This document shows positions 21,201 to 36,595 of a stretch of 64,000 bases of DNA, piece after piece. Every line of letters begins with the position of its first letter. Position 1 is the stretch's first letter. The notes under the pieces were generated by a model. The model made no database searches. It had not been told where the DNA came from and saw nothing but the letters and a program-made list of their open reading frames with translations. Source of the stretch: Shouchella oshimensis (GTDB lineage: Bacteria; Bacillota; Bacilli; Bacillales; Bacillaceae_D); NCBI RefSeq assembly GCF_002019765.1, contig NZ_KV917380.1:610707-674706 (forward strand), read 5' to 3'. The position numbers and the translations under genes were made by a program.

Positions 21201-24200
21201 GTGCAGAAAAAACATATCGTCAAGCTGTTATTGCTTGTCGCAATCATCATTGCTATCCCTTTTGCCTTTTTTCACTACATAGGGCAAGAACCTATGAGAG
21301 AAGAATTAAAAGCTTCCGGCAAAATGGTAGTAGTTAATGAGGACAACGGATACCAATATGAGGAAAATGAACCACTTATTTTAGGTAATGATATTGTATC
21401 CACATTGCAAGGTGACTCGGAATATGAATGGGTAGTGGCTGGTAGAGCTTCTGCTCAAGCTGGATTAGCGAACCAAGAATATGACGCGATTGTCTATATT
21501 GATTCTTCTTTTTCCGAGAACATTATGTCGTTTCAAGATTCACTCCCAAATCAGGCGAGTGTAAATTATGAAATCTATAATAATTTAAATGCAGAGAACC
21601 AAGAACGGGTGCAAAAAGAATTAGAGAGTGCCCAATTAAAAATGAATCAGCAAATTAGCACACAATATTGGCGCTATGTATCGGAGGAAGTGGACCGAGT
21701 TAGAGGAAACTTTACTGACGTGTTGCAAAAAGAAGTTGACTTCTTAAATGAAATGTACTCATTTTACTCGCCAAGTTCACAAGAATTAGCTGAGGAAATT
21801 GAGGTGCAGCGAAGCCGTCTTGATCAGTATTTTTCAGCTACTTCGGATACAGCCAATTTATCTGAAAGCTCTCGTGCGAATCTAGAAGAAGCCCAAGAGG
21901 GATTTAACGAACTTACTGATGCAATGGATCTTTACATGAACTATCAGAATGAGCAAACAGAGATGATGTTACAAGCGAACACTCAAAATGGCGACCTTGT
22001 CAACCAAGCAGTGAATGAGTTTCAACAAGCTTTACAAGTAGGAAGCGGAAATGTACAAGAAAATCAGAGTGTTTTTGCGCCCCAATTCGCCAATGATGGT
22101 GACAGAGTCGTTTCTTTGCTCGGTAACTGGGCAATCGGTTCGTATAAATTTACTGACGACATGAATCGGTTTAATCGCGACATTAACCAAGTATATGCTG
22201 CCCAAGACGAAGCAGTTGATCGCATTCCAAATGCACAGGCTGAACTAATCGGACAATATGCAAATGCAACGCAAGAAGAACGGGCAGAAGCGCAGTTCCG
22301 CCAAACGTTATATGTACGCTACCATTTATCACGGGACGAGGATCCACAGGAAAGCCCTTCTCGACCTGAACAGCCGGAAGAACTGCTAGAGTCGATTGAT
22401 GAAGATCTTCTAAACGACATAGAAGAAACGATTGCTGAAATCGAAAAATTAGTCGGTAGATTAAATCCTGGAGAAATAGACATTCCAGAACCTGATCCAA
22501 CAGAACCAGAATCACCGTCAGAACCTGATCCGGATAATGGAGACAGCGATGAAAATGAGCAACCAGCGCCAGGAGATCGTGATGATAATGGAAGCGGTGA
22601 TGAAGATCCTCCTTCACAGCCAACAGAGCCTCCAAATGAGGAAGAGAATAACGAAGGCGGGAATGAAGAGGAGGAAAGAGGCGAAGAGTCTGAACAAGAA
22701 CCTCCATTAGAAGAAGAGGAGGACCAAGAAGATGTAAATACAGCTCTTTCCTTTACACCGTACCGTGCAGAATTTGTTACTTTTTCTCAGGATGAACTGC
22801 AACGGGTATGGACAAAGGCAATGGAACTACTTAACAACATGGAACCAACATTAAAAGTAGCACAGTGGAGAATAGAGGATCATAGAGAAGTGACCGAGGC
22901 ATTTCTTGATTATGTAGAAAACCTTGAAGACTATGCATCACGTTTGGAACAATATGTTGAACAGCTTGAAGCGCAAGTGATTGACCCAGTTATTGAGGAA
23001 GTTCGCAAGCAAGAACAAGCCGTTTTCAACCGAATAGGTGCATCGCCTTCCTTAATTGACAGTCCAATCCTGTCAACAAATGTACAAGAACTACTTACCT
23101 ATTATGGAGAATTAGCCAAATTAGATTGGGCATATAGTCAGCTAGGTAATTTAAATCAAGACCGAGTGAAGCAACTTGTCGATGAAGACAATCGTGTCCG
23201 TGAGGTTCAGGCTACCATTGATAGGGCACGACAATCCGTCAGTTCGTTTATGGGCAACCAAGCGCAGCTAGAGGAAGCCCAACAATCCGTGGAGGAAGCA
23301 GAAGTAGAGTTTACTCAATTTGTTGCGGATGCAAATAATGTGCTGAACGAGTTAGAGCAATCAATTGCTCAAGAACAACAAGCCATTCTCGAAGAAGTGG
23401 CGGCAATGGCGGAAGCGAGTAACGCTATTGGCGGGAATCTATCTGAAAGCTATGAAGCGATTACTATAGAACCAGCACCGGTGGATGGCTTAAATGGGCA
23501 AATGGTCGTTTCCAATCAACAAATGTCATTAGATGAAGTTCAACAATTAGGAGCATCTGTTGAATCTCTTAGCAACCGCCAAGATGATATTATTGCCCAA
23601 ACAGAAGATCTTCATAGCAATGTGACTGAAGTTCAAGCCAAATCAGATGATTTGAACTCAAGATGGTCAGACAACGTTCAAACAACGGAACTGGTTTACG
23701 AAGACATTCACACGATTTTAGCCAACGCTTTGACTGATGGACATCACAATGACTATGTCTATAACCATCTTTCCAGTCCTGTTGGTGTAAGTGGAGAGCA
23801 AGGAACGGGACCAGCTGAAAGCCTAACACCACCAATCGTTGTGCTTGTCATTGTATTACTATCAAGTTTGCTGATTGGGTTTTTAACACACCACTATAGT
23901 TCGGTGCCAATCTTGGTTAATCTGTCGTTGTTTAGCATGTTATCAATCATTGTTGGTTTAGTCATAAGCATTTATGGCTTATCAATTTACACGATGAGTG
24001 GAAGTCAATCGATACAATGGACCATTATTACGGTTCTCTTGATCTTGGCAACAGCTGGCCTAATCCGTGTTGCCTTTATGGCTGGTCCGTGGGTTGGATG
24101 GCTACTTAGTGTTGCGTGCGTCCTATTCTTTACAAGCCCGCTCCTTGATATGGCCATGCCAAATTTCAGTACGAATAATCTAATTGCGGAACTCTATATT

Positions 24201-24344
24201 TCCATTCAAGCAAGCTCGCAAAATGCATTTCTTACAGGCATGCTTCCATTGGCGCTTATTGCAGCGCTAACGATTGCTGTTCCAATCGTTCGTCATGCGG
24301 TCGTAAACCGCAAAAAAGAAGAGGATGACGTTTATGAAATGTAA
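21201..24344 (+). CDS. esaA: EsaA/YueB membrane protein of T7SS
   Basis: A 1047-residue translocon protein with one N-terminal transmembrane helix (LLLLVAIIIAIPFAFFHYIG), a very long extracellular region with coiled-coil stretches, and about five C-terminal transmembrane helices (from IVVLVIVLLSSLLIGFL). In Bacillus subtilis the homolog YueB is the phage SPP1 receptor. The extracellular part carries an insert of roughly 85 residues rich in Pro, Glu, Asp, Gly and Asn (about 420-505). GTG 21201 follows GAGGTGG and places the membrane helix at the N-terminus; it lies 28 bp after essC. Confidence 0.88.
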   Translation: MQKKHIVKLLLLVAIIIAIPFAFFHYIGQEPMREELKASGKMVVVNEDNGYQYEENEPLILGNDIVSTLQGDSEYEWVVAGRASAQAGLANQEYDAIVYIDSSFSENIMSFQDSLPNQASVNYEIYNNLNAENQERVQKELESAQLKMNQQISTQYWRYVSEEVDRVRGNFTDVLQKEVDFLNEMYSFYSPSSQELAEEIEVQRSRLDQYFSATSDTANLSESSRANLEEAQEGFNELTDAMDLYMNYQNEQTEMMLQANTQNGDLVNQAVNEFQQALQVGSGNVQENQSVFAPQFANDGDRVVSLLGNWAIGSYKFTDDMNRFNRDINQVYAAQDEAVDRIPNAQAELIGQYANATQEERAEAQFRQTLYVRYHLSRDEDPQESPSRPEQPEELLESIDEDLLNDIEETIAEIEKLVGRLNPGEIDIPEPDPTEPESPSEPDPDNGDSDENEQPAPGDRDDNGSGDEDPPSQPTEPPNEEENNEGGNEEEERGEESEQEPPLEEEEDQEDVNTALSFTPYRAEFVTFSQDELQRVWTKAMELLNNMEPTLKVAQWRIEDHREVTEAFLDYVENLEDYASRLEQYVEQLEAQVIDPVIEEVRKQEQAVFNRIGASPSLIDSPILSTNVQELLTYYGELAKLDWAYSQLGNLNQDRVKQLVDEDNRVREVQATIDRARQSVSSFMGNQAQLEEAQQSVEEAEVEFTQFVADANNVLNELEQSIAQEQQAILEEVAAMAEASNAIGGNLSESYEAITIEPAPVDGLNGQMVVSNQQMSLDEVQQLGASVESLSNRQDDIIAQTEDLHSNVTEVQAKSDDLNSRWSDNVQTTELVYEDIHTILANALTDGHHNDYVYNHLSSPVGVSGEQGTGPAESLTPPIVVLVIVLLSSLLIGFLTHHYSSVPILVNLSLFSMLSIIVGLVISIYGLSIYTMSGSQSIQWTIITVLLILATAGLIRVAFMAGPWVGWLLSVACVLFFTSPLLDMAMPNFSTNNLIAELYISIQASSQNAFLTGMLPLALIAALTIAVPIVRHAVVNRKKEEDDVYEM

Positions 24345-24789
24345 AGCCATGGTTACGGGGATAGGAGTATGTTCAGTGCTACTCCTGTCTTCGGTAATGC
24401 CAAGCTTTGCCCAAGAAGAACGAGTGGAACCTGGTGTTTATAAAGAGCGAGAAGTGTTGTTAGAGCTCCGTCAATACAAACCAGAAGCGGAACAGCGGGA
24501 AATTAGAGTGCCTGAAGAACAAAAAATACTCACATTTACTCAGCCTCTAGAAGAAACATACACAGAACTTCAAGATACCTTGTTTGCAAGTAGTGCTGAA
24601 GCGACCCACGAGGAAAATGTAGCTGCTAGCGCCGGGTTGTTCACAGAGGAGAAAGTGTTGGCGCGTCATGTGGTCCCGCTAGAAGAAAGTGGAAATGTGC
24701 TACCATGGATATTAGCAGCTGTAGCGACGGTGCTTGTTTCGATTTTATTGATTTATATTATCCCGAAAACAGCGCAATGGAACGAGTAG
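24334..24789 (+). CDS. essA: EssA-like T7SS membrane protein
   Basis: A 151-residue protein with a signal peptide (VCSVLLLSSVMPSFAQ), an acidic extracellular domain and one C-terminal transmembrane helix (ILAAVATVLVSILLIYIIP). This architecture and its position at the end of the esaA gene match EssA/YueC, an essential T7SS component. It overlaps esaA by 11 bp. ATG 24334 is preferred, with GAGGA 8 bases upstream; ATG 24325 is also in frame. It is the last gene of the operon. Confidence 0.8.
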   Translation: MKCKAMVTGIGVCSVLLLSSVMPSFAQEERVEPGVYKEREVLLELRQYKPEAEQREIRVPEEQKILTFTQPLEETYTELQDTLFASSAEATHEENVAASAGLFTEEKVLARHVVPLEESGNVLPWILAAVATVLVSILLIYIIPKTAQWNE

Positions 24790-24954
24790 CTATATTTCTG
24801 TGGAAATAGAAATTAAGGCGAACCCTGAGGATTAAGGCACACATGCGAAGGTAATCATACTCATTGCAATAGGTTGCGTGTTTATAGTGGAAGGTATGAA
24901 GCGGAAAGTGAATAAAAGAAGCGCATAGGGCGATGAATTGTTGGGAGACGTCCA

Positions 24955-25152
24955 TTACTCTTTTAGCTTCTTTTTTTCTTCCCATTTGATCATATAAGGC
25001 CGTATGAAAAAGCCATATAAAAAACCTCCTATAGCAAAGCCGAGGGTGGAAAGCCAATCTGGATTGCCTTCACGTAAAACAAGGCTCATAATGAGCATCA
25101 TTGTTGCATAAACAAAACTGAACAAGAGACCGTCCTTTAACCGGGTATTCAC
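24955..25152 (-). CDS. Small membrane protein (65 aa)
   Basis: A 65-residue protein with two hydrophobic helices (FSFVYATMMLIMSLVL and LGFAIGGFLYGFFI) and a lysine-rich tail (KWEEKKKLKE). It starts with GTG, whose bases overlap the TGA stop of the upstream 55-residue gene, so the two are probably translationally coupled. Both lie behind a sigma-B-like promoter. The function is unknown; small stress-induced membrane proteins of this type are common in Bacillus. Confidence 0.6.
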   Translation of the reverse strand: MNTRLKDGLLFSFVYATMMLIMSLVLREGNPDWLSTLGFAIGGFLYGFFIRPYMIKWEEKKKLKE

Positions 25153-25316
25153 GAGGGTGCCTTCATTTCCGACGCCATGAAGTGAAAGATTGTATAAGTC
25201 AATCCTGAAAGAACGGTTGCGCTAATAATGTTAACGGTTTGATAACCAGTAGCAAGAATGACAAGTAGCCAAACAACGACAGCGATTGCGATGCATAATG
25301 TATAGGTTCCTTTCAT
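25149..25316 (-). CDS. Small membrane protein (55 aa), sigma-B-type promoter
   Basis: A 55-residue protein beginning MKGTYTLCIAIAVVVWLL with two transmembrane segments (through LATGYQTVNIISATVLSGL). The minus-strand ATG follows GAGGAACTCCT. Its stop codon overlaps the GTG of the next gene, making a two-gene unit. A near-consensus sigma-B promoter lies 40-65 bp upstream. I do not recognise the family; the pair may act together in the membrane under stress. Confidence 0.6.
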   Translation of the reverse strand: MKGTYTLCIAIAVVVWLLVILATGYQTVNIISATVLSGLTYTIFHFMASEMKAPS

Positions 25317-25354
25317 TAGGAGTTCCTCATTTCGATTTTATTTGTTCTCTGTAT

Positions 25355-25379
25355 ATACCCTGATAAAAGGGTTATAAAC
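25355..25379 (-). promoter_or_regulatory. Sigma-B-like promoter
   Basis: On the minus strand GTTTAT (25374-25379), a 13-base spacer and GGGTAT (25355-25360) match the general-stress consensus GTTTAA-N12-15-GGGTAT at 11 of 12 positions, upstream of the two small membrane protein genes. Confidence 0.6.
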
Positions 25380-25385
25380 GAGTGT

Positions 25386-25417
25386 AAAAAAACAGCAAGG
25401 CGCTTAGCCTTGCTGTT
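25386..25417 (-). terminator. Rho-independent terminator
   Basis: AACAGCAAGGC (25391-25401) pairs perfectly with GCCTTGCTGTT (25407-25417). Read on the minus strand it ends in a T run, directly after the 48-residue gene. Confidence 0.8.
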
Positions 25418-25420
25418 TCT

Positions 25421-25567
25421 TTAGAGTTTCCGGCGGCCAGAGATAAGTTGAAAAATAAGAACGACGAGTGCAATAACTAATAAAATATGTACAAGGTTTC
25501 CGCCGATTTCTCCGATAAATCCAAGTAACCATAATACAACTAAAACGACTAAAATTGTCCACAACAT
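25421..25567 (-). CDS. lmo0937-family small membrane protein (48 aa)
   Basis: A 48-residue hydrophobic protein beginning MLWTILVVLVVLWLLGF, with a second helix LLVIALVVLIFQLI and a basic end SGRRKL. This matches the short lmo0937 family of Gram-positive membrane proteins, whose members are often induced in the general stress response; their biochemical role is unknown. A GGAGGAAGC ribosome site precedes the minus-strand ATG, a sigma-B-like promoter lies 34-58 bp upstream and a strong terminator follows. Confidence 0.75.
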   Translation of the reverse strand: MLWTILVVLVVLWLLGFIGEIGGNLVHILLVIALVVLIFQLISGRRKL

Positions 25568-25600
25568 GGTAGCTTCCTCCTTTTTTTAACGTCTTACTCT

Positions 25601-25625
25601 TTTCCCTCTATTTAAAAGGTGAAAC
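25601..25625 (-). promoter_or_regulatory. Sigma-B-like promoter
   Basis: Minus strand GTTTCA (25620-25625), 13-base spacer, GGGAAA (25601-25606). It fits the relaxed GTTTMA-N12-15-GGGWAW pattern of sigma-B promoters, ahead of the lmo0937-family gene. Confidence 0.55.
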
Positions 25626-25762
25626 TGAGAAGAATTTCCTTATTAACTTCCTTTTAATTGTAAAAGAAACGGGTACTGTAACATATATAACAAAACTATT
25701 GTTAAGTAGTTTCTTACTAACAACCATAAATTAGTCTATGAATTGAGTCAGTAGTAGATAAA

Positions 25763-25819
25763 TCGATTATAGAATTGATTGACAATTATAATTTATTGAA
25801 TTAAGCTAATCTTATATTT
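25763..25819 (+). promoter_or_regulatory. Probable promoter region of the precursor-peptide genes
   Basis: The 437-bp space 25568-26004 holds no gene apart from the divergent promoter above. A perfect TATAAT occurs at 25787-25792 with a weak TCGATT 18 bases upstream, and a perfect TTGACA at 25779-25784 without a good partner at normal spacing. The transcription start is therefore uncertain, and a long untranslated leader is likely. Confidence 0.35.
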
Positions 25820-26004
25820 TTTGATAATCTTCATTTTATATCTTTGTCAGTTGTATTACTAGGAAGAATGATTACTAACCGTTATAATTCCAGAAAAATA
25901 TTCTGAGTAGTTGGAAAAGTGAGTGATAGGTTCAGTGCTCAGCATTATAGCAATCAAAACAAAAGATAGAATGATCCTTTTTAATTAGAAAGGAGGTGAA
26001 CATA

Positions 26005-26085
26005 TTGGCTAAAATTGAATCAAAAGAAACACCTGTTGTTAATTTGGATTTAGAACTGCTAGGTGGATCACGTCCTAGGCGATAA
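26005..26085 (+). CDS. Candidate RiPP precursor peptide 1 (core SRPRR)
   Basis: A 26-residue peptide starting at TTG behind AGGAGGTG. Residues 1-21 (MAKIESKETP followed by VVNLDLELLGG) form a leader nearly identical in all three copies; the tail is SRPRR. The LxLELLGG ending resembles double-glycine leaders removed during export. The peptide is too short and too conserved in its leader to be chance, and the neighbouring operon encodes arginine- and PLP-type enzymes with an exporter. I infer it is the substrate of those enzymes, with Arg residues as modification sites. The exact cleavage point is unproven. Confidence 0.75.
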   Translation: MAKIESKETPVVNLDLELLGGSRPRR

Positions 26086-26136
26086 CCGTCATCTTTTTTA
26101 TACTTATGGATTTTATTTGGAAAGGTAGTGAGAAGA

Positions 26137-26220
26137 ATGGCTAAAATCGAATCAAAAGAAACACCTGTTGTTAATTTGGATTTAGAATTACTAGGTGGAT
26201 CGCGTCCAAGAGTTCACTAA
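26137..26220 (+). CDS. Candidate RiPP precursor peptide 2 (core SRPRVH)
   Basis: A 27-residue peptide with the same leader as peptide 1 and a tail SRPRVH, two residues longer than the minimal SRPR. It starts at ATG behind AAAGGTAGTGAG. The nucleotide sequence differs from copy 1 at several silent positions, so the leader protein sequence is under selection rather than being a fresh duplication. The variable extension after SRPR suggests that SRPR is the essential part and the extra residues are tolerated or trimmed. Confidence 0.75.
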   Translation: MAKIESKETPVVNLDLELLGGSRPRVH

Positions 26221-26269
26221 CATCCGTTTAATCATACTTAATCAACTAATAATAAAGGTGGTGTAATGA

Positions 26270-26347
26270 ATGGCTAAAATTGAATCAAAAGAAACGCCTA
26301 TCGTTAATCTAGACTTAGAATTATTAGGTGGATCACGTCCAAGATAA
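26270..26347 (+). CDS. Candidate RiPP precursor peptide 3 (core SRPR)
   Basis: A 25-residue peptide, leader identical except Val11 to Ile, ending exactly at SRPR. ATG follows AAAGGTGGTG. It is the last of the three precursor genes and is followed by a perfect hairpin before the enzyme operon. Because this copy stops at SRPR, the minimal product unit may be this tetrapeptide. Confidence 0.75.
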   Translation: MAKIESKETPIVNLDLELLGGSRPR

Positions 26348-26360
26348 CAAGGCAATTAAA

Positions 26361-26396
26361 GAAACCTTAATAGATGGCTATTAAGGTTTCTCTCTT
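26361..26396 (+). terminator. Hairpin separating precursors from enzyme operon
   Basis: GAAACCTTAATAG (26361-26373) pairs perfectly with CTATTAAGGTTTC (26378-26390) around a 4-base loop, followed by a pyrimidine-rich TCTCTTG. It is a likely partial terminator or processing site that gives abundant precursor mRNA and lower enzyme mRNA, a common RiPP operon design. Confidence 0.65.
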
Positions 26397-26450
26397 GAAA
26401 AAGAACGAATGGGATGTGTAACAGTATGCTTATGGAGGGTGATTACACTG

Positions 26451-27635
26451 TTGGATCATTTATATAAACAGCCTGATGGAAAGATATTCGAGCTTGTCGA
26501 TCAACTGAGGGAACCGACGATGATTTATGATTTAGACGGAATAAAACATACAGTGAGAGTATTGAAAGAGGATATTGAGTTAATTGACAATGCCTTTCTT
26601 CATCTAGCGGTAAAAGCAATACATAACAAGGAAATGTTGAATCATTTTGCTCATCTAGGTCTCGGATGCGATGTTGCGAGTGTTGGAGAATATCGTCTTG
26701 TTCAAGATAGTGGCTTTAGAAAGATAACGACGACAAGTCCATATTATAGCCGCGATAGCATGAGAACGTTTGTCGAGAACGATATCGTTATGGATTTAGA
26801 TTCTATGGATCAACTAAATGATTTTGTTGAAATGGGTTATTCGAAAGAAGTAGGCTTGAGGATTGCAATCCCTATTCCAGAAGAAATGGATACAATTGCT
26901 ACCTTTGGCTTGGATAGCAGATTTGGGATTGATTTTTATGAAAGCAAAGATGAACTAATACGGTTGAAAGAAACATACGATTTAGCAATTAGCAATCTTC
27001 ATATTCATACAGGGCAATCTACCGGTGCTTCTTTTCAGTTTAAACTAAAGTATTTATTAGAGATTGCAAGTCAAATAGATACAATTAAAACGATTAATCT
27101 TGGCGGTGGTCTTTTTTATTTATTTCATAATCGTGAAGAAACGCGAAAACTGTTTAAAGAAATGAATCTGCTTATACGTAATTGGGAAAACGTTCATGGC
27201 AGAAAGTTAGAGTTTATTTTTGAACCTGGTGGTGCTTTGTTAGCTGGTAATGGTTATTTGATTTCAGAAATTGTCTCGAAGAAAGTACATAAGAAAAGAA
27301 ATGTTACGATGTTGCAGTGCGATACATCATTTTGGAATTTATCCCCTTGGATACGCAGCAATCCGATCTTTCTAAATCGTTCTGATGAAGTGGAGCGCGT
27401 TGTTTTTGTTGGAAATACGTTATTTGAAGGAGATTCTTTATCGGATTTTAAAGAATATGAAGTACCCAAGGTAAAAAAAGGCGACAAGGTACTCTTTCCA
27501 GCATTTGGGGCTTACGCTCTAACGAATGCTAGAAGATTTAATAGGCTTAATCTACCAAACCAATATGTGTTAATTGATGGAGAAATCCATTCTTTAGAGG
27601 AGGAAATACGAGGTGAACCGTTCCACTCGATATAA
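26451..27635 (+). CDS. Fold-III PLP enzyme, decarboxylase-like (1)
   Basis: A 394-residue relative of ornithine/diaminopimelate decarboxylases (alanine-racemase-type barrel plus beta domain). PLP lysine K55 lies in LAVKAIHN, the phosphate-binding glycines in INLGGGLF, and EPGGALLAGNG corresponds to the family's EPGR region but with Gly for Arg. At the dimer-interface motif, normally with a catalytic Cys (CESGD), the protein has GNTLFEGDS with Leu at the Cys position, so normal decarboxylation is doubtful. TTG 26451 follows GGAGGG by 11 bases and begins the conserved part. The gene overlaps the arginase gene by 23 bp. Possible activities are decarboxylation, epimerisation or transamination of a peptide or a free amino acid. 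Confidence 0.75.
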   Translation: MDHLYKQPDGKIFELVDQLREPTMIYDLDGIKHTVRVLKEDIELIDNAFLHLAVKAIHNKEMLNHFAHLGLGCDVASVGEYRLVQDSGFRKITTTSPYYSRDSMRTFVENDIVMDLDSMDQLNDFVEMGYSKEVGLRIAIPIPEEMDTIATFGLDSRFGIDFYESKDELIRLKETYDLAISNLHIHTGQSTGASFQFKLKYLLEIASQIDTIKTINLGGGLFYLFHNREETRKLFKEMNLLIRNWENVHGRKLEFIFEPGGALLAGNGYLISEIVSKKVHKKRNVTMLQCDTSFWNLSPWIRSNPIFLNRSDEVERVVFVGNTLFEGDSLSDFKEYEVPKVKKGDKVLFPAFGAYALTNARRFNRLNLPNQYVLIDGEIHSLEEEIRGEPFHSI

Positions 27636-28821
27636 AGTAAATCCAAATGTGTCTGTGATACGTACTAGTGCTCAAGACATCATCCTCACCAACATGGGGA
27701 AGGGGAGGGAATACCACATACCACTAGATATGTTTACTCTTCTTTCTTCGTTCAATGTCCCTGTAAACGTAGAGCAGGCTATATCGATTTATAGGAACTC
27801 CAATCAACAAGCACAAGCACTTGAAGAAGCGGAATTACTAGAATCCATAGAAGAGCTTGAAAAGAATGATCTCATTGTGCTAGCTAATGTAGATGTTCAA
27901 ATGGCAAATAGTGTTGCCCAGTCAACAAATCGATTCTTTAATTTTAATGGAATGAGAATGGAAGAGGTCATTAATGTTGGTGCTCATATACCTGATACTG
28001 TCGCTATTATTGGTATGCCGTTTGACCACAATGTAACTAATTTACCAGGCAGTCGATTGGGCCCAGAATATTTAAGACGCCATAGTCGATCGATTGTTCC
28101 CTATGGTTTCCCTCAAGTAGAAGTGAAAGGTCAACATACAGAAGGGGTCCATTTAGCGAGTAAAGTGTTTGATTGTGGAGATATTTCTGGACACGTATTT
28201 GATCGAAACGGTAGGCAGCAAAGACAGTTAGAGGAAATTGTGAGGAAACTAACATTAGCGAAGATTAAGCCAGTGATCGTCGGTGGTGATCACTCGATTA
28301 CGTATTCGTCATTACAAGGGATTCTCTCGCATAAAAAAATTGGTTTGATCCATATTGATGCCCATTACGATGGTGGGGGAACCGAACAAGTATCATTCAA
28401 AGATATCCACCATGGAAACTTCATGGATGGTTTTTTAAATGAAAGGAATCTTGAACATATCCTTCAAATTGGTCAAAGGCAAAGAGTGGATCAAGAGCAT
28501 GTACAAGCCGAGAAGATTGATGTCGTTCCTTCTGATGAACTGGATATCGGTCGCTATTTAAGAGAGGGATTGCCCTACTACATAACACTTGATGTCGATG
28601 TATTAGACCCTAGTTTTATGTCTTCTACAGGTACCCCAGTCCCACTTGGTATGCACCCTAAAGAGTTGATGGCTATCTTAACTAGTATAAGAGAACATGA
28701 CATTATAGGTGGCGACGTGGTTGAATTTCTTCCATCCGAGCATAAAGTTCATGAAGCCTTACTTGTAAATGAGCTGTTGCTAACGTTAATCAGTATGATG
28801 ACGAAGGTGGATTTATCATGA
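27613..28821 (+). CDS. Arginase-family enzyme with N-terminal RRE-like domain
   Basis: A 402-residue fusion. Residues 1-95 (VSVIRTSAQDIILTNMGKGR, then a helical part ending ELEKNDLIVL) have the strand-helix pattern of PqqD-like RiPP recognition elements, which bind leader peptides. Residues 130-402 are a ureohydrolase with all manganese ligands: H227 in GGDHS, D249/H251/D253 in DAHYD, and D327/D329 in DVDVLDP, plus E371. The fold converts arginine to ornithine and urea; known peptide arginases such as OspR do this on ribosomal peptides. Given the Arg-rich precursors upstream, peptidyl-Arg hydrolysis is the leading hypothesis; agmatinase is an alternative. GTG start behind GGAGGAAA; overlaps both neighbours. 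Confidence 0.78.
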   Translation: MNRSTRYKVNPNVSVIRTSAQDIILTNMGKGREYHIPLDMFTLLSSFNVPVNVEQAISIYRNSNQQAQALEEAELLESIEELEKNDLIVLANVDVQMANSVAQSTNRFFNFNGMRMEEVINVGAHIPDTVAIIGMPFDHNVTNLPGSRLGPEYLRRHSRSIVPYGFPQVEVKGQHTEGVHLASKVFDCGDISGHVFDRNGRQQRQLEEIVRKLTLAKIKPVIVGGDHSITYSSLQGILSHKKIGLIHIDAHYDGGGTEQVSFKDIHHGNFMDGFLNERNLEHILQIGQRQRVDQEHVQAEKIDVVPSDELDIGRYLREGLPYYITLDVDVLDPSFMSSTGTPVPLGMHPKELMAILTSIREHDIIGGDVVEFLPSEHKVHEALLVNELLLTLISMMTKVDLS

Positions 28822-29978
28822 GTCTATTTCCTGAACTCCCTCAAAACATGCTTCATAGGTCTAACGAGATTAAGAGCCCGGCAGTTGTGTATGATGCAGA
28901 ATCATTAACTCATGTTGTGAATCACTTAAGACGTCGTTTAGGTAGTGTGAAAAAAATGAAACTCTACGTTTCAATGAAAGCGAATCGAAATGTGGGTTTA
29001 AATGCATATATGTCGAAGGTTGTTGACGGGGTTGATGTCTCTTCGTACGAAGAATATCAAGTTGCTACAGTAGCTGGTTATTCGCGCATTAGTGCAACAT
29101 CTCCAGGAATCAAAATCGAGCATATCCATGAAATGATCGAAAACCATGTGCAGTTTGATTTTGATAACGTGGAGCAACTATATGCCTATTCATGTCAGTA
29201 CAATGAAAGCAGGCAACCCAAGGATATTGGCTTACGATTAAATATCCCGATTGAATCAAAAGGTGCCACGACTTATCTATCAAAAAGTCGATTTGGCATT
29301 AACGTAAGTCAATCAGACAATCAACAGGCGCTTAAGGAGATTTTAAAAGAGTTCCACTATAAAGTGACTAGCATCCATATCCACATTGGCGAGTTAAACA
29401 ATTTTAATACGGTTAAGGACACCCTTAACTATTTAGTTGATATTCTTTCTCTTTTTCCAGATGTCCAGACATTAAACCTTGGCGGTGGTCTCACGCGGTT
29501 ATTCTCAAATGAAGAAGACCTAGATAAAACATTCGAACTCATACAATCCTATACGGAACAGTATTTACCGAAACTGAAAGAAGTCATATTCGAACCTGGT
29601 ATGCTTGTTTATGTCATGGCTGGTTATTTAAAGACGAGTGTTTTATCTGTGAACAATGGGGTAGTCAACATGGATTCTTCTGCTTGGAATTTAATAGAAT
29701 GGACAAAAGGGAATGTAAAGATTGTTTACACTAGTTCGAATGGAGAGGTGGAACAACAAACCATTGCTGGTAACACATGCTATGAAAAAGATATCTATTT
29801 CGAGAACACGGCTTCTAATAAACTGTCTTTAAACGATTATATCGTGTTGTTTCCATTTGGAGCCTACACCGTTTCCATGAGTAAATCCCTTCACGGTCTT
29901 CCGAGCCCAAAAGAATACTTGTATATAAACGATAAATTTACAGAATTATCTGTTGGTGAAGGTCAGGTGCACGCATGA
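28818..29978 (+). CDS. Fold-III PLP enzyme, decarboxylase-like (2)
   Basis: A 386-residue paralog of the enzyme at 26451 from the ornithine/diaminopimelate decarboxylase superfamily. PLP lysine K54 lies in VSMKANRN; the glycine loop is LNLGGGLT; the late motif reads GNTCYEKD, keeping the Cys and Asp equivalents that the first paralog lacks. The EPGR equivalent is EPGM, again without Arg. The pair could form a heterodimer, since family active sites are shared between subunits and one partner keeps the Cys. It starts inside the arginase stop codon (ATGA overlap), so it is translationally coupled. Substrate unknown. Confidence 0.75.
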   Translation: MSLFPELPQNMLHRSNEIKSPAVVYDAESLTHVVNHLRRRLGSVKKMKLYVSMKANRNVGLNAYMSKVVDGVDVSSYEEYQVATVAGYSRISATSPGIKIEHIHEMIENHVQFDFDNVEQLYAYSCQYNESRQPKDIGLRLNIPIESKGATTYLSKSRFGINVSQSDNQQALKEILKEFHYKVTSIHIHIGELNNFNTVKDTLNYLVDILSLFPDVQTLNLGGGLTRLFSNEEDLDKTFELIQSYTEQYLPKLKEVIFEPGMLVYVMAGYLKTSVLSVNNGVVNMDSSAWNLIEWTKGNVKIVYTSSNGEVEQQTIAGNTCYEKDIYFENTASNKLSLNDYIVLFPFGAYTVSMSKSLHGLPSPKEYLYINDKFTELSVGEGQVHA

Positions 29979-31357
29979 AAAACCATCTACTTAGTGAACT
30001 GGATCTTTTAAACTGTATGTCTGAAGATCTACAACTAGATCTATCGATAGAAGCGGATGCTATTGAGAACCAAATCAAAGCAAATGACAATGCATTCTTA
30101 ATTGAACAGAAGCTAGAGGAACTGTCTCAAACAATTAGAATGAAATGGATTTGTAAGAATATCCAACATACGTCTACGTTTATGAGATCGCCACTTCAAA
30201 CCCCAACTACTTATGGAGGAACGGTCCATGACTTTTCGTACGAACGAAATATAGAGACAACTTCCTTAGAAGATAAGATCCAAACGAGTAACGAACAAGT
30301 ATGTTGGAATAATACGGCCTTAGCTTTTTCAAGCGGGATGGCTACATTGAGTACGCTGTTCAATAGCTTATTGTCATTCTATTCCCCAAGTCAAAACAAT
30401 CCATTATCGATGGTTTGTTTTGCAGACTACTTTGAAAGCAAAGGGTTGTTAGAAGTAATCGCTAGAGAGCATTTATCGATTACGTATGCAGACACTGGAG
30501 AAATTGATTTTAATGGGTTCGATATTATCTACATTGAACCAACGAGATATGACTGGAAAATGAATTACTTTGATACGGATCAAAGTTTTGAAAACACGAT
30601 TGAAGATAAGAAAAAGTTTACATTCATTATTATTGATAGTACTTTATCTCAAGACAATACTACAAGAGACGCTATTCTGGCTAAATGCAAACATCAGCCA
30701 TTTACTGTTGTTATGGAATGTTCATCTGGTTTAAAGCTTCATCAATTTGGATTAGAACTTTGCAACTTTGGCTATGTGAATATTTATTGTCGAAAGGATG
30801 ACGCGGACATTATCGATAGTATTAAGCTAAAACAATACATAAAAAAGGTTCGTACTCTGAACGGAAGCGCCTTATCCTTCGAATCTGCCAGTGTGCTTGA
30901 TGCTCCTTTTATTTTCAATGAGATCAAGACAAACCATTATATTGATCGAGTGTTTGAAAACAACCTAAAGTTAAAAAAGAATACGCGCGTTGGTGGATTA
31001 TTTAAAGAGATATCTACTGCTGAAAAAGGGTCTCCGTTCGTAGTATTTCAGATTGAGAACAATGATTTAGATGATTATGGCTACTTAATGGGTGTGTTAG
31101 ATGATCAGTCTAAACAAGCAGGAGCACTGTTTTATAGAGGGTCAAGTTTTGGTTTTAGACATCATCGATATGAGACCATTATCCCTGACAACAAAGTACG
31201 TAAAGGCTTATTTAAAATTGCTATGGGATTTCGAAAAGGACCATCCTTTGAATTTATCCTACGTTTTATGAGGGAGCTTTCAGAACTTAATAACATGAGA
31301 GAGCTGAGAACGAGATTTCCTGCTATAACGCCTGTAAGCTTCGATCATTTAGATTAA
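29975..31357 (+). CDS. Fold-I PLP enzyme, Cys/Met-metabolism lyase-like
   Basis: A 460-residue divergent relative of cystathionine gamma-synthase/lyase enzymes. ALAFSSGMATLSTLF matches the PLP phosphate-binding SGM loop, D221 in FIIIDSTLS matches the pyridine-nitrogen Asp, and K254 in ECSSGLKLHQFG fits the Schiff-base lysine (normally STKY-GGH). The first 75 residues do not match the usual family start. The gene overlaps the previous one by ATGA. Classical relatives do gamma- or beta-elimination and replacement; here it may act on Ser or on an ornithine side chain of the peptide. This is inference. Confidence 0.68.
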   Translation: MKNHLLSELDLLNCMSEDLQLDLSIEADAIENQIKANDNAFLIEQKLEELSQTIRMKWICKNIQHTSTFMRSPLQTPTTYGGTVHDFSYERNIETTSLEDKIQTSNEQVCWNNTALAFSSGMATLSTLFNSLLSFYSPSQNNPLSMVCFADYFESKGLLEVIAREHLSITYADTGEIDFNGFDIIYIEPTRYDWKMNYFDTDQSFENTIEDKKKFTFIIIDSTLSQDNTTRDAILAKCKHQPFTVVMECSSGLKLHQFGLELCNFGYVNIYCRKDDADIIDSIKLKQYIKKVRTLNGSALSFESASVLDAPFIFNEIKTNHYIDRVFENNLKLKKNTRVGGLFKEISTAEKGSPFVVFQIENNDLDDYGYLMGVLDDQSKQAGALFYRGSSFGFRHHRYETIIPDNKVRKGLFKIAMGFRKGPSFEFILRFMRELSELNNMRELRTRFPAITPVSFDHLD

Positions 31358-31374
31358 TTGAAGGTGGTTTGGAG

Positions 31375-31416
31375 ATGAATGTCTATATAAGAACGATTGT
31401 GAATGAAAATGAATAA
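31375..31416 (+). CDS. Possible 13-residue leader ORF before the exporter
   Basis: MNVYIRTIVNENE starts 5 bases after a GGAGGTG-like site (GAAGGTGGTTTGGAG), and its stop overlaps the beginning of the exporter gene, which has no ribosome site of its own. It probably serves to couple translation to the exporter. It could also be non-functional. Confidence 0.35.
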   Translation: MNVYIRTIVNENE

Positions 31417-33088
31417 CGATTTGTTGCAAATTGTTAGAAAGATCAAAATTCCTAAACGCATTCTTACTGTGGGATTAATGTTATCCATCGCATTTGCTGT
31501 ATCAGCAGTCATTACACCGTTAATTATTAAAAACTTCATTGATGATGTTACCTATAACAATGAGGTGAATAGTCAACTGCTTTATGCTCTAATTGGGCTC
31601 TTTTTAATTCAAGGTTTACTAAATGGGCTATCCACGTATATCTTAAGTTTGCTTTGTGAAACCATGATTTATCGACTGAGACTGCAGTTATGGAGTAAGA
31701 TTTTAACGTTACCACTTCGGTTTTTTAACGATAATCGGCCCGGTGAACTAGTAAGTAGATTAATAGGTGATATAGAGGAAATTAATATGTTCCTAACTGA
31801 ACAAGTTCCGAAATTATTGACGAATGTTGTGTTAATTATCGGTTCATTAATTGCTCTTTCGCTCATTTCCTTTCATATGGTACTCTTCATCGTTATTGCG
31901 TTAGCGCTATTCTTGTGCGTTATTGTTCCGTTTAGCAAGAAGATGCAAACCATTTCTTATGATTTTCGATTAAACGTTGCCAGATTGTCTGCTTATTTTT
32001 TAAGAATTATTGAAAACATTGAAGTGGTAAAAGTATACAAAACCGAAGAAAAAGAAGTAGACAATGGGAAAAAAACCTTACACTCTATTTTTAACTTGGG
32101 CATGAAAGAAGCAAAGGTCTATGCGTTTTTAGAACCTCTTGTGATGATTCTTTCCATCATTCTGCTAACAGCAGTAATGGGATATGGGAGCTATTTAATT
32201 TCTCAAGGAACCTTAACGTTCGGAGGATTTTTAGCAGCATTTTTAATTTTGTTCCAATTATTTAGTCCTTTAAGAGCTTTTTCAAGTATATGGGTATCGT
32301 ACAGGACAGCCGCAGGTGCCTCTGTTTTTATCCATTCTATTTTTTCGTTCAAATCGGAAGTAACAGAAGAATTAGCCCAAGGTCCTAAACAAGATGCTGT
32401 TGAAATAAGAAATCTTACGTTCTCCTATAAAGAAACTCCTGTTTTAAAAAAGGTGAATATAGAATTAAAGCATGGAGAAGTAGTGGCAGTTGTTGGTCCT
32501 TCTGGCAGTGGGAAAAGTACATTATTGAAACTTCTTTTAGGTCTCTATTCGCCAGATAGTGGATCTATTCTGTACAATGGCGAACGTGTTTCTCACTCTG
32601 CATTCTATAAAAGTAAGATTGGCTATATTCCTCAAGATAGCTTATTGTTTGATGCAAGTGTTGAAACAAATGTGTTTTATGGTAATGAAACGAAGTCAAG
32701 CGATGCGTTTCTAACGTTACTTCATCAAAACTTTATGAATTTTGACTATGAGTCATTGAAAGATGAGTTTGCTCCTAATTTATCAGGGGGGCAAAAACAG
32801 CGAGTCAATATTTTAAGAGCCCTTTCTAAAGAAAGAGAGATCATTTATTTAGATGAGCCTACTTCAAACTTAGATAGTGAAAGCGAAGCCATTCTTCAAA
32901 AGTATTTGCACCGTAATGTGGAGAACAAACTAGTCGTCATTATTGCTCATAGGTTATCAACAATTATTAACGCCGATCGAATTATCTTTTTAGACAATGG
33001 ACAGGTGACAGGTGAAGGCACCCATCACACCCTTTACAATACACACCAAAAGTATCGAAGCTATGTTGATTTTCAAGTCTTACAGTAA
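31403..33088 (+). CDS. ABC exporter (membrane domain fused to ATPase)
   Basis: A 561-residue half-transporter, working as a dimer, with about six transmembrane helices in residues 15-300 and a nucleotide-binding domain at 330-561: Walker A GPSGSGKST, Q-loop YIPQDS, signature LSGGQKQR, Walker B IIYLDEPTSNLD and switch IIAHRLST. All catalytic motifs are intact. It lacks the N-terminal C39 peptidase domain typical of double-glycine exporters, so the leader must be removed by another protease or after export. ATG 31403 or 31409 are both possible. It most likely exports the peptide product. Confidence 0.88.
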   Translation: MKMNNDLLQIVRKIKIPKRILTVGLMLSIAFAVSAVITPLIIKNFIDDVTYNNEVNSQLLYALIGLFLIQGLLNGLSTYILSLLCETMIYRLRLQLWSKILTLPLRFFNDNRPGELVSRLIGDIEEINMFLTEQVPKLLTNVVLIIGSLIALSLISFHMVLFIVIALALFLCVIVPFSKKMQTISYDFRLNVARLSAYFLRIIENIEVVKVYKTEEKEVDNGKKTLHSIFNLGMKEAKVYAFLEPLVMILSIILLTAVMGYGSYLISQGTLTFGGFLAAFLILFQLFSPLRAFSSIWVSYRTAAGASVFIHSIFSFKSEVTEELAQGPKQDAVEIRNLTFSYKETPVLKKVNIELKHGEVVAVVGPSGSGKSTLLKLLLGLYSPDSGSILYNGERVSHSAFYKSKIGYIPQDSLLFDASVETNVFYGNETKSSDAFLTLLHQNFMNFDYESLKDEFAPNLSGGQKQRVNILRALSKEREIIYLDEPTSNLDSESEAILQKYLHRNVENKLVVIIAHRLSTIINADRIIFLDNGQVTGEGTHHTLYNTHQKYRSYVDFQVLQ

Positions 33089-33124
33089 CATTGTATCCGT
33101 AATAAATAGAGTGGAGGGCTTTAT

Positions 33125-34009
33125 ATGATACAGATTTTTAAAAAACCGCAATTAACGGAAATAGCGAGGTTCATCGCTAACATTAATTCGGCACCAGAGC
33201 ATCACGTGGGGTTTTGTGGAAAGAAAGAGGAAGAAATTCTACATACATTAAAAGAAGATTTTGGAGATATACCGGCAATGGATGCTTTTGTCTTAGCAAT
33301 AGAGGATGAAAAAACAGTTGGTGTGTGTGGTTTTGATGCGGATATGGAAAGAGGGAGTGCAGAGATCTGGGGGCCATTTGTAAACAGTAAGCAAGCAGCT
33401 AAAGTGACAGAATTACTTTGGACTTCTCTGCTTTCAGAAATGCCTACAACAATAAAAACGGTAGAATTATTTCCTGAAAAAAAGAATACAAGCGTTCTTA
33501 CTCTCGCTAAAGAGTTCGACTTTTCACATGGAAGCGATCAAACGATTTTAACCTGTTCTAAACATACCTTTATGGATAAAAAAGTAGAAACCGAAACCAT
33601 CACCAGCATCCAGTCTAACGAGTACAACCCATTTATACACCTCCATGATCGTTTATTTCCTAAAACCTATTTGTCTGGAAAAGAAATGATCGATCAACTT
33701 GGCGAAGCGTCCCAGGTTTTTATTGCTAGCGATGAGGAAGGACGAGTCATAGGTTATGTGTATGTTGAAGCCAGCCCAGATTTTGGAGAAGGTAGTATTG
33801 AATTCTTAGGAGTAGACACCCATTCACGTGAAAAAGGAATTGGGACAGCTCTTCTTTCAAAAGGGTTAGAATGGTTGTTTTCTTTTGAAACGATCGATGA
33901 AATTACATTATGTGTAAATTCAGCTAATGAAAAAGCGATTCATATTTATCAAAAGCTCGGTTTTCATACAGAACATGAACTTATCTCTTATGAAAAGAAT
34001 CTTAATTAA
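33125..34009 (+). CDS. Tandem GNAT acetyltransferase
   Basis: A 294-residue protein with two GNAT-like halves. The C-terminal half has a good acetyl-CoA loop (REKGIGTALLSKGLEWLF) and the usual NEKAIHIYQKLGF ending; the N-terminal half (residues 1-140) is degenerate. It is the last gene of the peptide operon before a terminator. It may acetylate an amino group (ornithine side chain or the peptide N-terminus), either as a tailoring step or as self-protection against the product. ATG follows GTGGAGGGC. Confidence 0.75.
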   Translation: MIQIFKKPQLTEIARFIANINSAPEHHVGFCGKKEEEILHTLKEDFGDIPAMDAFVLAIEDEKTVGVCGFDADMERGSAEIWGPFVNSKQAAKVTELLWTSLLSEMPTTIKTVELFPEKKNTSVLTLAKEFDFSHGSDQTILTCSKHTFMDKKVETETITSIQSNEYNPFIHLHDRLFPKTYLSGKEMIDQLGEASQVFIASDEEGRVIGYVYVEASPDFGEGSIEFLGVDTHSREKGIGTALLSKGLEWLFSFETIDEITLCVNSANEKAIHIYQKLGFHTEHELISYEKNLN

Positions 34010-34020
34010 CAATGATGGTC

Positions 34021-34060
34021 GGGACCTTCTACAAGTTGTGATGGGAAGGTCTCTTTTTTG
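34021..34060 (+). terminator. Rho-independent terminator of the peptide operon
   Basis: GACCTTC (34023-34029) pairs with GAAGGTC (34045-34051), then CTTTTTT. It marks the end of the operon beginning at 26005. Confidence 0.75.
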
Positions 34061-34159
34061 CATTTGTACATATAAAAGATGAACAAGGGAATGTCATGAT
34101 TGATAAGTCAGCGGAAGAATGAAGGCATTTAGTTAAAAGAAAAGCGTATGAATAAGACG

Positions 34160-34434
34160 GAGGCTGGGACAAAAGTAGATAGACAGACAAAAATGACGAA
34201 CATTCCTGAAAATAGGAACGTTCGTCGTTTGTTTTATATGAAAATGAGCGGAAGGAGAATCTGAAGACTCCTGGGGGATCAGCACGTGTCTGAAGACTCT
34301 GGAGTGGCGGTTTTCCAAGGAGGAGGCTGAGGCCGTGTCCCCGGAAAGTGAAGGATTCTCCTGTAGTGGTGCTACTCAGAATATTTTAGACTATTCGTCT
34401 TTTCAAATACTACTTTTCGCTATGTCCCAGCCTC
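34160..34434. repeat. Dispersed 275-bp repeat, copy 1
   Basis: Starts with GAGGCTGGGAC and ends with the inverted GTCCCAGCCTC. Inside, a hairpin CGAACATTCCT / AGGAACGTTCG and several direct repeats occur. It shows no open reading frame of note. Nearly the same sequence occurs at 60113 and, shortened, at 36195. It fills most of the 617-bp gap between the acetyltransferase and BCCT genes; the remainder (34435-34626) is AT-rich and presumably carries the BCCT promoter. Confidence 0.9.
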
Positions 34435-34626
34435 TTTTTCGTTAATATCCCGCATTTTTGCTTCGCTTTCTTAAATGTAATCAAAATGTAATAAAAGAAC
34501 TCTTTTAGCATAAGACTAAGCATTTTACGCGTTGATTCATAAAAGTATGGATCGATTTATCACATATGTGCTTTCTTTTTTGCTAAAGTATAGACTTGTG
34601 GTTTTGAGCAGTGAAAGGGGAAAAAG

Positions 34627-36180
34627 ATGGCAAAAGGTCAACAGAAAGTGTTACAGACCGTAAATTGGCCAGTTTTTATCATGAGCGGAGGATTCTTACT
34701 TCTCTTTGTCGTGATGGCTTTTACAAATATGGAATTAACATCCTTTATAGTCGATAAAGGATTTCAACTCGCCATAACGTATTTTGGTGGGTATTGGCAA
34801 GTATTATTACTAGCGACGTTTTTAGTTGGAGCGGTTCTTGCGTTTTCAAAGCTTGGGTCCGTTCGCATTGGAAAATTAGATAAACCGGAAATGGGCTTTT
34901 TTAAATACCTGGCTATCGTTGTCACAACAGGGCTTGGAGCTGGAGGGGTCTTCTGGGCTGCGGCAGAGCCGTTGTATTATTTTCTGGAAGCACCACCTAC
35001 GTATAGTGGCATTATTGAAACGACGAACGATGCCATTCAAGTGGCGCTTGCACAAAGCTTTATTTCCTGGGGATTTTCTGCTTGGGCAGTGTATGGCGCG
35101 ATTTGTTCCATTGTAATGGTTTACGCGCATAACCATAAAGGTATGCCGTTAAAGCCACGTACGATTCTTTACCCTATTTTAGGGGATCGCATACAAGACA
35201 GTAAATGGGGAACAGCTGTTGACGTGTTCTGTATTATTGGAGCCGCCGCTGGTACCATTGGTCCGATTGGGTTCCTAGGGTTACAAGTGAGCTATGGGGT
35301 GAATGCGTTATTTGGCTGGCCAGATACGTATGTAACCCAAGTCACCATTATTTTAACCCTTACGAGTATTGTTTTACTTTCAACATTAACTGGGATTGAA
35401 AAAGGGATTCAGTGGCTTAGTAAAGTAAATGTGAATACAGCCTTGTTTATCGGTGTTTTTTTAGTTTTGTTCGGCCCAGGTATTTTTCTAATTGATTCCT
35501 ACATTTCAGCTACAGGAACCTATCTGTCCCATTTTATAGAAATGACCACGTTCAGAGGCGATAATGAATGGTCTGGCGCATGGATGCTCTTCTTTTTTGG
35601 CTGGTTTATTGGCTTTGGTCCAATGGTAGCACTTATGGTGGCGCGCATTTCTCGCGGAAGAACGATTCGAGAGTTATTTCTCGTTGTGGCGATTATTACG
35701 CCAATCCTAACAAATATTTGGTTTACGATATTAGGTGGCTCAGGTATTTTCTATGAGATTCAAACACCTGGATCCATTGCGACTCCATTAGAAGAAAACG
35801 GGTTACCGGCTGCCATTATAGCGATTGCAAGCCAAATGCCTCTCGGTAGTATGATGCCGTTCCTTTTCCTTTTACTAACGATCTTGTTCGTTGTAACAAC
35901 AGTGGATACAATGTCGTATTCACTTGCCATGAGTGTCACAGGTAAAGGGAATCCAGCAAAAAGCATTCGATTTTTCTGGGCTTCCATTATGTCTATTATA
36001 GCCATGATTTTAATTAATGTAGGAAATGGTGGAGTCAATGCGCTCCAATCATTTGTCGTTATAGCAGCAGTACCTGTATCACTTATTTTATTACCACTCT
36101 TGTGGGGGGCGCCAAAAATAGCGTTCCTTCTGGCTAAAGAACAAGGGATTATTTCTAGCGAAGAAAAAAACAATAAATAA
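34627..36180 (+). CDS. BCCT-family transporter
   Basis: A 517-residue betaine/carnitine/choline-type secondary transporter with about 12 transmembrane helices. Diagnostic segments are GLGAGGVFWAAAEPLYYFLE (substrate and coupling region of TM3-4), GTIGPIGFLGLQVSYGVNAL and FFGWFIGFGPMVALMVARIS followed by RGRTIREL, the family signature. It probably takes up quaternary-ammonium osmolytes with sodium. The C-terminus is short, without the long osmosensor helix of BetP. The gene is bracketed by two copies of the dispersed repeat. Which substrate it uses is not clear. Confidence 0.85.
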   Translation: MAKGQQKVLQTVNWPVFIMSGGFLLLFVVMAFTNMELTSFIVDKGFQLAITYFGGYWQVLLLATFLVGAVLAFSKLGSVRIGKLDKPEMGFFKYLAIVVTTGLGAGGVFWAAAEPLYYFLEAPPTYSGIIETTNDAIQVALAQSFISWGFSAWAVYGAICSIVMVYAHNHKGMPLKPRTILYPILGDRIQDSKWGTAVDVFCIIGAAAGTIGPIGFLGLQVSYGVNALFGWPDTYVTQVTIILTLTSIVLLSTLTGIEKGIQWLSKVNVNTALFIGVFLVLFGPGIFLIDSYISATGTYLSHFIEMTTFRGDNEWSGAWMLFFFGWFIGFGPMVALMVARISRGRTIRELFLVVAIITPILTNIWFTILGGSGIFYEIQTPGSIATPLEENGLPAAIIAIASQMPLGSMMPFLFLLLTILFVVTTVDTMSYSLAMSVTGKGNPAKSIRFFWASIMSIIAMILINVGNGGVNALQSFVVIAAVPVSLILLPLLWGAPKIAFLLAKEQGIISSEEKNNK

Positions 36181-36194
36181 GCGAATGGTAAAAA

Positions 36195-36370
36195 GATGCT
36201 GGGACAAAAGTAGATAGACAGACCAGAACGACGAACATTCCTGAAAATAGGAACGTTCGTCGTTTGTTTTATATGGAAATTAGCGGAAGGATTCTCCTGT
36301 AGCGCTGCTACTCAGCATATTTTAGACTATTCGTCTTTTCAACTACTACTTTTCGTTATGTCCCGGCCTC
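36195..36370. repeat. Dispersed repeat, copy 2 (internally deleted, 176 bp)
   Basis: Same ends as copy 1 (GATGCTGGGAC...GTCCCGGCCTC, one base changed in each arm). About 99 bp are missing from the middle, and the junction lies at a short GAAGGA direct repeat that flanks the missing block in the full copies, consistent with slippage or recombination. It fills much of the 415-bp gap 36181-36595; the rest holds no recognisable gene. Confidence 0.88.
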
Positions 36371-36595
36371 TTTACCTTTGCCTTCTATGGTGACACGATT
36401 CGTAACAACCAGTTACCTTTATGTTGAAAGCGGTTTACAGATGTAGAATAGCATTTCCAATGAAAATATACTTGCTACTATGGCTCAAGTTTCGGTAAAA
36501 TCGAATGCAGGGCCTTTTGTTTTAGGAACCACTTAAAAACGAGTAATGCAAGCATAAATAGAGAAAGTAACAGAAGAAAGGAACGAAACATCACT

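Follow-up and report, generated by a model that had tools for sequence, protein, structure and literature searches.

A candidate RiPP locus in Shouchella oshimensis with very small GGSR precursors, an arginase-family protein and a possible two-enzyme pyridoxal phosphate route to spermidine-like side chains

A 64,000-nucleotide (nt) stretch of the Shouchella oshimensis genome (assembly GCF_002019765.1, contig NZ_KV917380.1, positions 610,707 to 674,706; the window) contains a forward-strand locus in which three tandem mini-genes (26005-26347) precede an operon that may modify their products. The mini-genes code for near-identical peptides of 25-27 amino acids (aa) with GGSRPR at or close to the C-terminal end: peptide 1 (26005..26085, TTG start, 26 aa, ending LDLELLGGSRPRR), peptide 2 (26137..26220, ATG start, 27 aa, ending GGSRPRVH), and peptide 3 (26270..26347, ATG start, 25 aa, ending GGSRPR). 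Their shared sequence is (M)AKIESKETP(V/I)VNLDLELLGGSRPR followed by 0-2 more residues, and the ribosome-binding site of peptide 1, AAAGGAGGTG, includes a full AGGAGG while those of peptides 2 and 3 are weaker (AAAGGTxGTG). A perfect 14-bp hairpin (26360..26391; z -5.19, reached in 0/200 shuffles) separates them from the operon at 26409-34009, which encodes a fold-III pyridoxal phosphate (PLP) enzyme of type A (26409..27635; PF02784, 77.8 bits), a ureohydrolase proposed as a peptide arginase (27613..28821; PF00491, 180.6 bits), a type B fold-III PLP enzyme proposed as a decarboxylase (28818..29978; PF02784, 73.1 bits), a fold-I PLP enzyme proposed as a 3-amino-3-carboxypropyl transferase (29975..31357) and related to the cystathionine gamma-synthase (CGS)/methionine gamma-lyase group, an ABC exporter with permease and ATPase parts (31403..33088; PF00664, PF00005), and a GNAT acetyltransferase recognized by family scan (33125..34009), for which self-protection or tailoring is proposed. 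This gene order, put forward from the raw sequence in the original prediction, was reproduced by open reading frame (ORF) and Pfam scans. The ATGA overlaps claimed there were present as 4-nt overlaps at 28818 (arginase/type B) and 29975 (type B/fold-I), but the first overlap, into the arginase GTG start at 27613, was 23 nt and the exporter and GNAT genes did not overlap adjoining genes.

The mini-genes are contained in three 100-nt direct repeats spaced by 132 and 133 nt, and GGSR-containing ORFs of 20-70 aa ended solely at these three sites over both strands of the 64 kb. The nonsynonymous to synonymous ratio (pN/pS) was 0.07 among 11 copies from three Shouchella-group genomes, calculated from 386 synonymous versus 80 nonsynonymous differences over 55 pairs that are not independent. 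The hairpin might set the ratio of precursor to enzyme mRNA; the equivalent intervals of two further loci, L009 and L005 (see below), gave z values of -0.15 and +0.60, no better than shuffles. A scan of the window locus found no T-run terminator, Rfam returned nothing above gathering score over 24000-37000, and promoter-like sites numbered four against 4.1 expected. Pfam scans found no radical SAM protein among the nine window proteins scanned (21066-36180), no methyltransferase or ThiF-like adenylyltransferase among the operon proteins, and listed no peptidase domain for the ABC exporter.

Conservation was surveyed by locating loci through their enzymes first, with precursors sought only afterwards. 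Sequences related to the fold-I enzyme or to the arginase were drawn from plasmids, one-genome-per-species contigs, and sampled whole genomes; the whole-genome counts take in the window's own genome or the starting genome. In the one-genome-per-species contigs 4/54 pattern stretches were confirmed, compared with 0/55 in viral contigs, and phages yielded no relatives. Relatives occurred in 3/60 genomes of the relatives sample, 3/13 of the genus, and 3/398 of the class, as well as in 5/200, 2/36, and 2/108 genomes of three family samples. The order sample gave matches in 67/397 genomes at E <= 1e-3, the only strong ones being G000, G007, and G212; 64 further matches, partial and with E from 1.5e-7 to 1e-3, were taken as ordinary Cys/Met enzymes and set aside. 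The phylum sample gave 2/398 at 1e-9, one being the window's own and the other a 37-bit partial match.

Eighteen loci with a fold-I relative were examined, ten of which carried an arginase: the window, L008 (Shouchella miscanthi), L026 (from the window's genus), L009 (Bacillus sp. RO3), L025, L052, L053, L005 (Mammaliicoccus sciuri plasmid pWHA07), L031, and L011 (Facklamia lactis). The eight without a recognized arginase were L006, L007, L010, L027, L032, L054, L055, and L056; G1335 (L049), which may be RO3 itself, was left out of the survey. Of the eight, L027 (5827-6612) is a second, N-terminally short fold-I gene of S. miscanthi (G012) beside an MFS-like gene, perhaps the remnant of another cluster, and L010 (10001-11342) is a fold-I relative on a contig with N runs from a Rhodospirillaceae metagenome-assembled genome, where no cluster was recognized. 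EsaA and EssA, genes for type VII secretion (21066-24789), lie directly upstream of the S. oshimensis island and this flank is common to S. miscanthi; a placement of the island at differing sites among Shouchella species was rejected, as the flanks are shared.

One or more precursors lay just upstream of the enzymes in 10/10 arginase-type loci. Identity to the window proteins was low in M. sciuri (fold-I 31%, arginase 36%, type A 38%) and in Facklamia (fold-I 23%, arginase 30%), and co-conservation of the precursors is therefore not mere recent DNA copying. An absence of precursors beside the enzymes in related genomes had been named beforehand as an observation that would refute a RiPP (ribosomally synthesized and post-translationally modified peptide) pathway; the survey found the opposite and across genera, so that this proposal is now well supported and the locus very probably encodes a RiPP. 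A different use of the peptides, as pheromones for Rgg-type regulators with the enzymes only processing or modifying the signal, draws on the HTH-TPR or Rgg genes adjoining L009 (4656-5888), L031 (4942-6234), and L052 (2831-3706). RiPP clusters next to quorum sensing regulators are known. We consider the pheromone reading improbable, given that no regulator was present among the nine proteins scanned in the window and that the HTH protein of Facklamia showed no TPR.

The ten arginase loci contained 18 precursors, every one a short ORF immediately ahead of the operon and preceded by a ribosome-binding site that is complete or at least partial. Most were located by motif scan, those of L005 and L031 by reading the upstream DNA, and that of Facklamia by small-ORF listing. 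GGSR was present in 18/18, GGSRPR in 16/18, and LDLxx(L/M)GGSR in 17/18, with 21 to 51 residues before GG and two deviant ends, GGSRIDKDRL in L031 and GGGSRLRQRMS in L011. At 25 aa the precursor is very small, and its core is probably SRPR. In Bacillus sp. RO3 (L009) the precursor gene is enclosed by a 25-bp inverted repeat (96%) at 5993-6017 and 6255-6279. Such a short core preceded by GG, and the invariance of GGSR while the residues following it vary, would also suit a peptide that serves as a scaffold: Arg would be modified on it and then cut free by a protease, yielding a small metabolite that is not a peptide, as with 3-thiaglutamate. This is unlikely, somewhat more so than the other assignments of the PLP enzymes discussed below, as neither a protease nor an aminoacyl-tRNA-using ligase was recognized in the operon and an exporter gene suits a peptide equally.

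The arginase matched PF00491 as the sole family listed at E <= 0.1, PF12640 (the OspR type) not being among those listed, and it stayed under the curated NCBIfam cut-offs for both agmatinase (109.9 versus 174.3 bits) and arginase (65.9 versus 227.6 bits). Its binuclear metal site is intact, as in PF00491 peptide arginases, with H227, D249, H251, D253, D327, and D329, plus E371, invariant in 8/8 aligned arginases. The motifs D-x-N, TSP(S/T)GN, and LDxGE, which are assigned to binding free arginine through its amino and carboxyl groups, were present in 4/4 usable RocF rows (six were fetched; one fragment and one further row were omitted) and absent from 8/8 cluster arginases. Among solved structures the best relatives were agmatinases, guanidinopropionase, guanidinobutyrase, and proclavaminate amidinohydrolase; most arginases ranked lower. 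The conversion of peptidyl Arg to ornithine proposed at the outset thus remains plausible on the kept metal site, the missing RocF residues, and the precedent of PF00491 peptide arginases, and from these sequence patterns the enzyme probably converts Arg to ornithine on the peptide. About 110 extra residues precede the PF00491 region, predicted at low confidence (predicted local distance difference test, pLDDT, about 45-65) to form three main strands and then three helices, the order of a RiPP recognition element (RRE).

The nearness of the arginase to agmatinases, together with carboxynorspermidine decarboxylase as the top fold-III match, would also be expected of a free polyamine route from agmatine or ornithine to putrescine and spermidine, with the peptides unrelated or regulatory. 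Separate speE-like spermidine synthase and agmatinase genes lie side by side in the genome, and the conservation of GGSR would be left unexplained, for which reasons this route, the main alternative in the original prediction, is weakened and now appears highly improbable; the precursors in all ten loci, the agmatinase score below its cut-off, and the extra N-terminal domain also count against it.

The fold-III enzymes contain PF02784 and the PLP lysine, and their profile scored against solved structures highest with carboxynorspermidine decarboxylase 3n29 (140.6 bits), level with diaminopimelate (DAP) decarboxylase (139.4), followed by BtrK (126.7) and ornithine decarboxylase (ODC; 108.0). 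The substrate of carboxynorspermidine decarboxylase is an adduct of the 3-amino-3-carboxypropyl type. All nine loci with two fold-III genes have one of type A, in which Leu replaces the decarboxylase Cys (GNTLFEGD in the window), and one of type B, which keeps it (GNTCYEKD). In a 16-row tree types A and B each formed one side of a branch (76/97), while 8/13 inner branches were open and the fold-III enzymes of Facklamia, E. faecalis, and G593 are consequently unplaced. The two types may serve two sites, form a heterodimer, or differ in chemistry.

For the fold-I enzyme, PF01053 scored 17.2 bits (cut-off 27), the profile matched methionine gamma-lyase and cystathionine gamma-lyase (CGL) remotely in the PDB, and the best structural matches of its weak model were methionine gamma-lyase, CGL, and CGS (Foldseek E 1e-8). 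Residues Y89, R91, S120-G121, Y152, D221, and K254, whose roles we assign from CGS, were invariant in 13/13 sequences from three cluster types, with the signature SFGF. Enzymes of the PLP gamma family form an electrophilic C4 unit that is attacked by nucleophiles.

On these grounds we tentatively favor, as the best explanation of the whole, a RiPP in which peptidyl ornithine is aminopropylated to a spermidine-like side chain. The arginase N-terminal domain would bind the leader PVVNLDLELL, and the ureohydrolase would hydrolyze the Arg that follows GGS, giving ornithine (-42.02 Da), and might do the same to the other Arg in SRPR. The fold-I enzyme would then make a vinylglycine-type intermediate from S-adenosylmethionine (SAM) or an O-acylhomoserine, to which the ornithine delta-amine would be added at C-gamma (+101.05 Da), and a fold-III enzyme would decarboxylate the attached alpha-amino acid (-43.99 Da) to give N-delta-(3-aminopropyl)ornithine, a net change of +15.04 Da per Arg. 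The ABC protein would export the product, a protease not recognized in the operon would remove the leader, perhaps at GG, and the GNAT protein may acetylate the product for self-protection or tailoring. What the sequences establish are the precursors, their co-conservation with the enzymes, and the family and residue patterns; all reactions, the binding of the leader, cleavage at GG, and the GNAT role are inferences. The alpha-amino and carboxyl groups of a fold-III decarboxylase substrate must be free, and a leader-bound peptide offers no such pair; the 3-amino-3-carboxypropyl group attached by the fold-I enzyme carries both, so that decarboxylation could proceed on the leader-bound peptide. 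The PLP step of the original prediction is thereby altered: a peptide terminus or free amino acid need not be the target of the decarboxylases if the fold-I enzyme acts first. The aminopropylation steps themselves are possible and are put forward with slightly more reserve than the reading as a whole.

Several observations weigh against this reading. Among PDB sequences the profile of the fold-I enzyme scored best with an L-Ala/L-Glu racemase, which was level with methionine gamma-lyase (E 6e-5), and the enzyme might accordingly be an epimerase. Template modeling (TM) scores of its model to the best chains were only about 0.2-0.4, and both AlphaFold2 (AF2) models were poor (mean pLDDT 61 and 58, 4-row alignments). 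Three other carboxynorspermidine decarboxylases scored far lower than the top one against the fold-III profile, at 99.1, 89.4, and 78.7 bits. The decarboxylase Cys was found in 9/9 type B and 0/9 type A enzymes, and Met takes its place in the single fold-III enzyme of Facklamia; loss of this residue in ODC (Cys360) diverts the reaction, and type A may for want of it not be a normal decarboxylase. The RRE-like fusion is the least secure element of the original prediction: the N-terminal extension is present, the N-terminal domains alone gave no match against NCBIfam and Pfam hidden Markov models (HMMs), and their profile did not match four ThiF N-terminal domains (probability 0.2%). Finally, no protease was recognized among the operon proteins, and the ThiF-type clusters described below showed no arginase and no obvious amine acceptor near the mini-peptide C-terminus.

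The missing Cys in type A and the remote kinship of the fold-I enzyme to the gamma family, level with a racemase, favor other roles for the PLP enzymes in a peptidyl ornithine RiPP, close to the model first proposed: the fold-I enzyme as an ornithine delta-aminotransferase, eliminase, or epimerase, and the fold-III enzymes acting on the N-terminus after leader removal. We regard these assignments as unlikely, since a decarboxylase needs a free alpha-amino acid that the leader-bound peptide does not offer, and the best matches of the fold-III enzymes are decarboxylases, whose relatives include some that handle large or carrier-bound substrates.

The fold-I/fold-III pair of the proposed aminopropylation was also identified in other cluster types. 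On plasmids of E. faecalis (L007, 4303-12544) and L. lactis (L006, 3376-10180) it accompanies a ThiF-like protein and an acetyltransferase, together with an MFS exporter in L007 and a split MFS-like gene, recognized by eye, in L006. In both, a mini-ORF ending in Arg-Thr (..VERT and ..RVRT, respectively) lies ahead of the cluster. The fold-III gene of L. lactis is split across two ORFs. The resemblance to microcin C biosynthesis (ThiF, transfer, decarboxylation, acetyltransferase, MFS) suggested the transferase role for the fold-I enzyme. No amine acceptor is evident in the ThiF loci, which speaks against a single explanation for the pair in all settings. Three plasmid loci (L034, L035, and L036) with a ThiF gene and no annotated PLP enzyme were set aside, and the two hypothetical proteins that follow ThiF in L034 and in L036 matched no PLP family. 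The pair was further found with an FAD oxidoreductase in L055 (532-5413) and L032 (6726-11320) and near a PF02441 flavoprotein in L054 (5829-10703), with MFS exporters in all three and Rgg regulators in L055 and L054. Candidate precursors there, chosen from listings that held other short ORFs too, end in DKVY (L055) and DKVC (L054), and the Lys near the C-terminus of both could be the amine acceptor. The presence of the pair beside ThiF-like enzymes and flavoproteins indicates that it may be a portable cassette. That it defines a new RiPP class, in which polyamine side chains are installed by a two-PLP aminopropylation cassette reused with arginase, ThiF-like adenylyltransferases, and flavoproteins (at least three contexts), is conceivable and rather doubtful at present.

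Among the papers listed from open-licence PubMed Central, which lacks most subscription papers, none described this precursor or an arginase-plus-PLP RiPP. RiPPs and peptide arginases, including those of PF00491, are already known, and the PLP pair would be new chemistry. If correct, the pathway would represent a further RiPP class, marked by its very small precursor and by a conversion of Arg to a spermidine-like residue for which no report on ribosomal peptides was found. Residues of this kind give peptides a strongly cationic character and are known from non-ribosomal antibiotics such as edeine. The arginase and PLP pair would be useful for introducing ornithine and aminopropyl groups into designed peptides.

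Compared with known systems, the fold-III enzymes share sequence family and PLP lysine with the alanine racemase (AR)-fold decarboxylases (carboxynorspermidine, DAP, BtrK), but form a separate group, most rows of which carry a D-x-S-x-W-N-like motif, and type A is without the Cys. The better known peptide arginases, of the OspR/FlmR/OhkR type, belong to PF12640 (PMC12703449, PMC10028609); they resemble the present enzyme in the proposed conversion of Arg to ornithine on a leader-bearing precursor, and differ in that PF00491, an extra N-terminal domain, and other precursors are found here. The enteropeptins combine a PF00491 peptide arginase with N-methylornithine (PMC10028609). They share with the pathway proposed here the arginase Pfam family and ornithine made on a ribosomal peptide with subsequent alkylation of its nitrogen. 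In the enteropeptins that nitrogen is methylated, whereas the operon proteins here comprise PLP enzymes and neither radical SAM nor methyltransferase, as compared by Pfam family only. The enteropeptin arginase reportedly acts only after a radical SAM enzyme has formed a thiomorpholine at the Arg C-alpha.

Parallels for the PLP pair came from transfer followed by decarboxylation. In loline biosynthesis LolC and LolD are said to carry out the same two PLP steps on small-molecule substrates. In muraymycin biosynthesis the PLP enzyme Mur24 transfers the group from SAM and the PLP enzyme Mur23 decarboxylates that adduct (PMC10491745, PMC9814697). There, too, two PLP enzymes yield an aminopropyl group, but the substrates are small molecules, Mur24 resembles 1-aminocyclopropane-1-carboxylate (ACC) synthases, and the product is not a RiPP. 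For microcin C, three sources describe 3-amino-3-carboxypropyl transfer by MccD and fold-III decarboxylation by MccE (PMC7857480, PMC10491745, PMC12250964), and place MccE and BtrK in one clade. MccD has a methyltransferase fold and a phosphate target, while at the present locus ThiF is lacking and decarboxylase and GNAT are separate genes; in both systems, transfer to a ribosomal peptide precedes, or here would precede, fold-III decarboxylation, accompanied by an acetyltransferase and an exporter.

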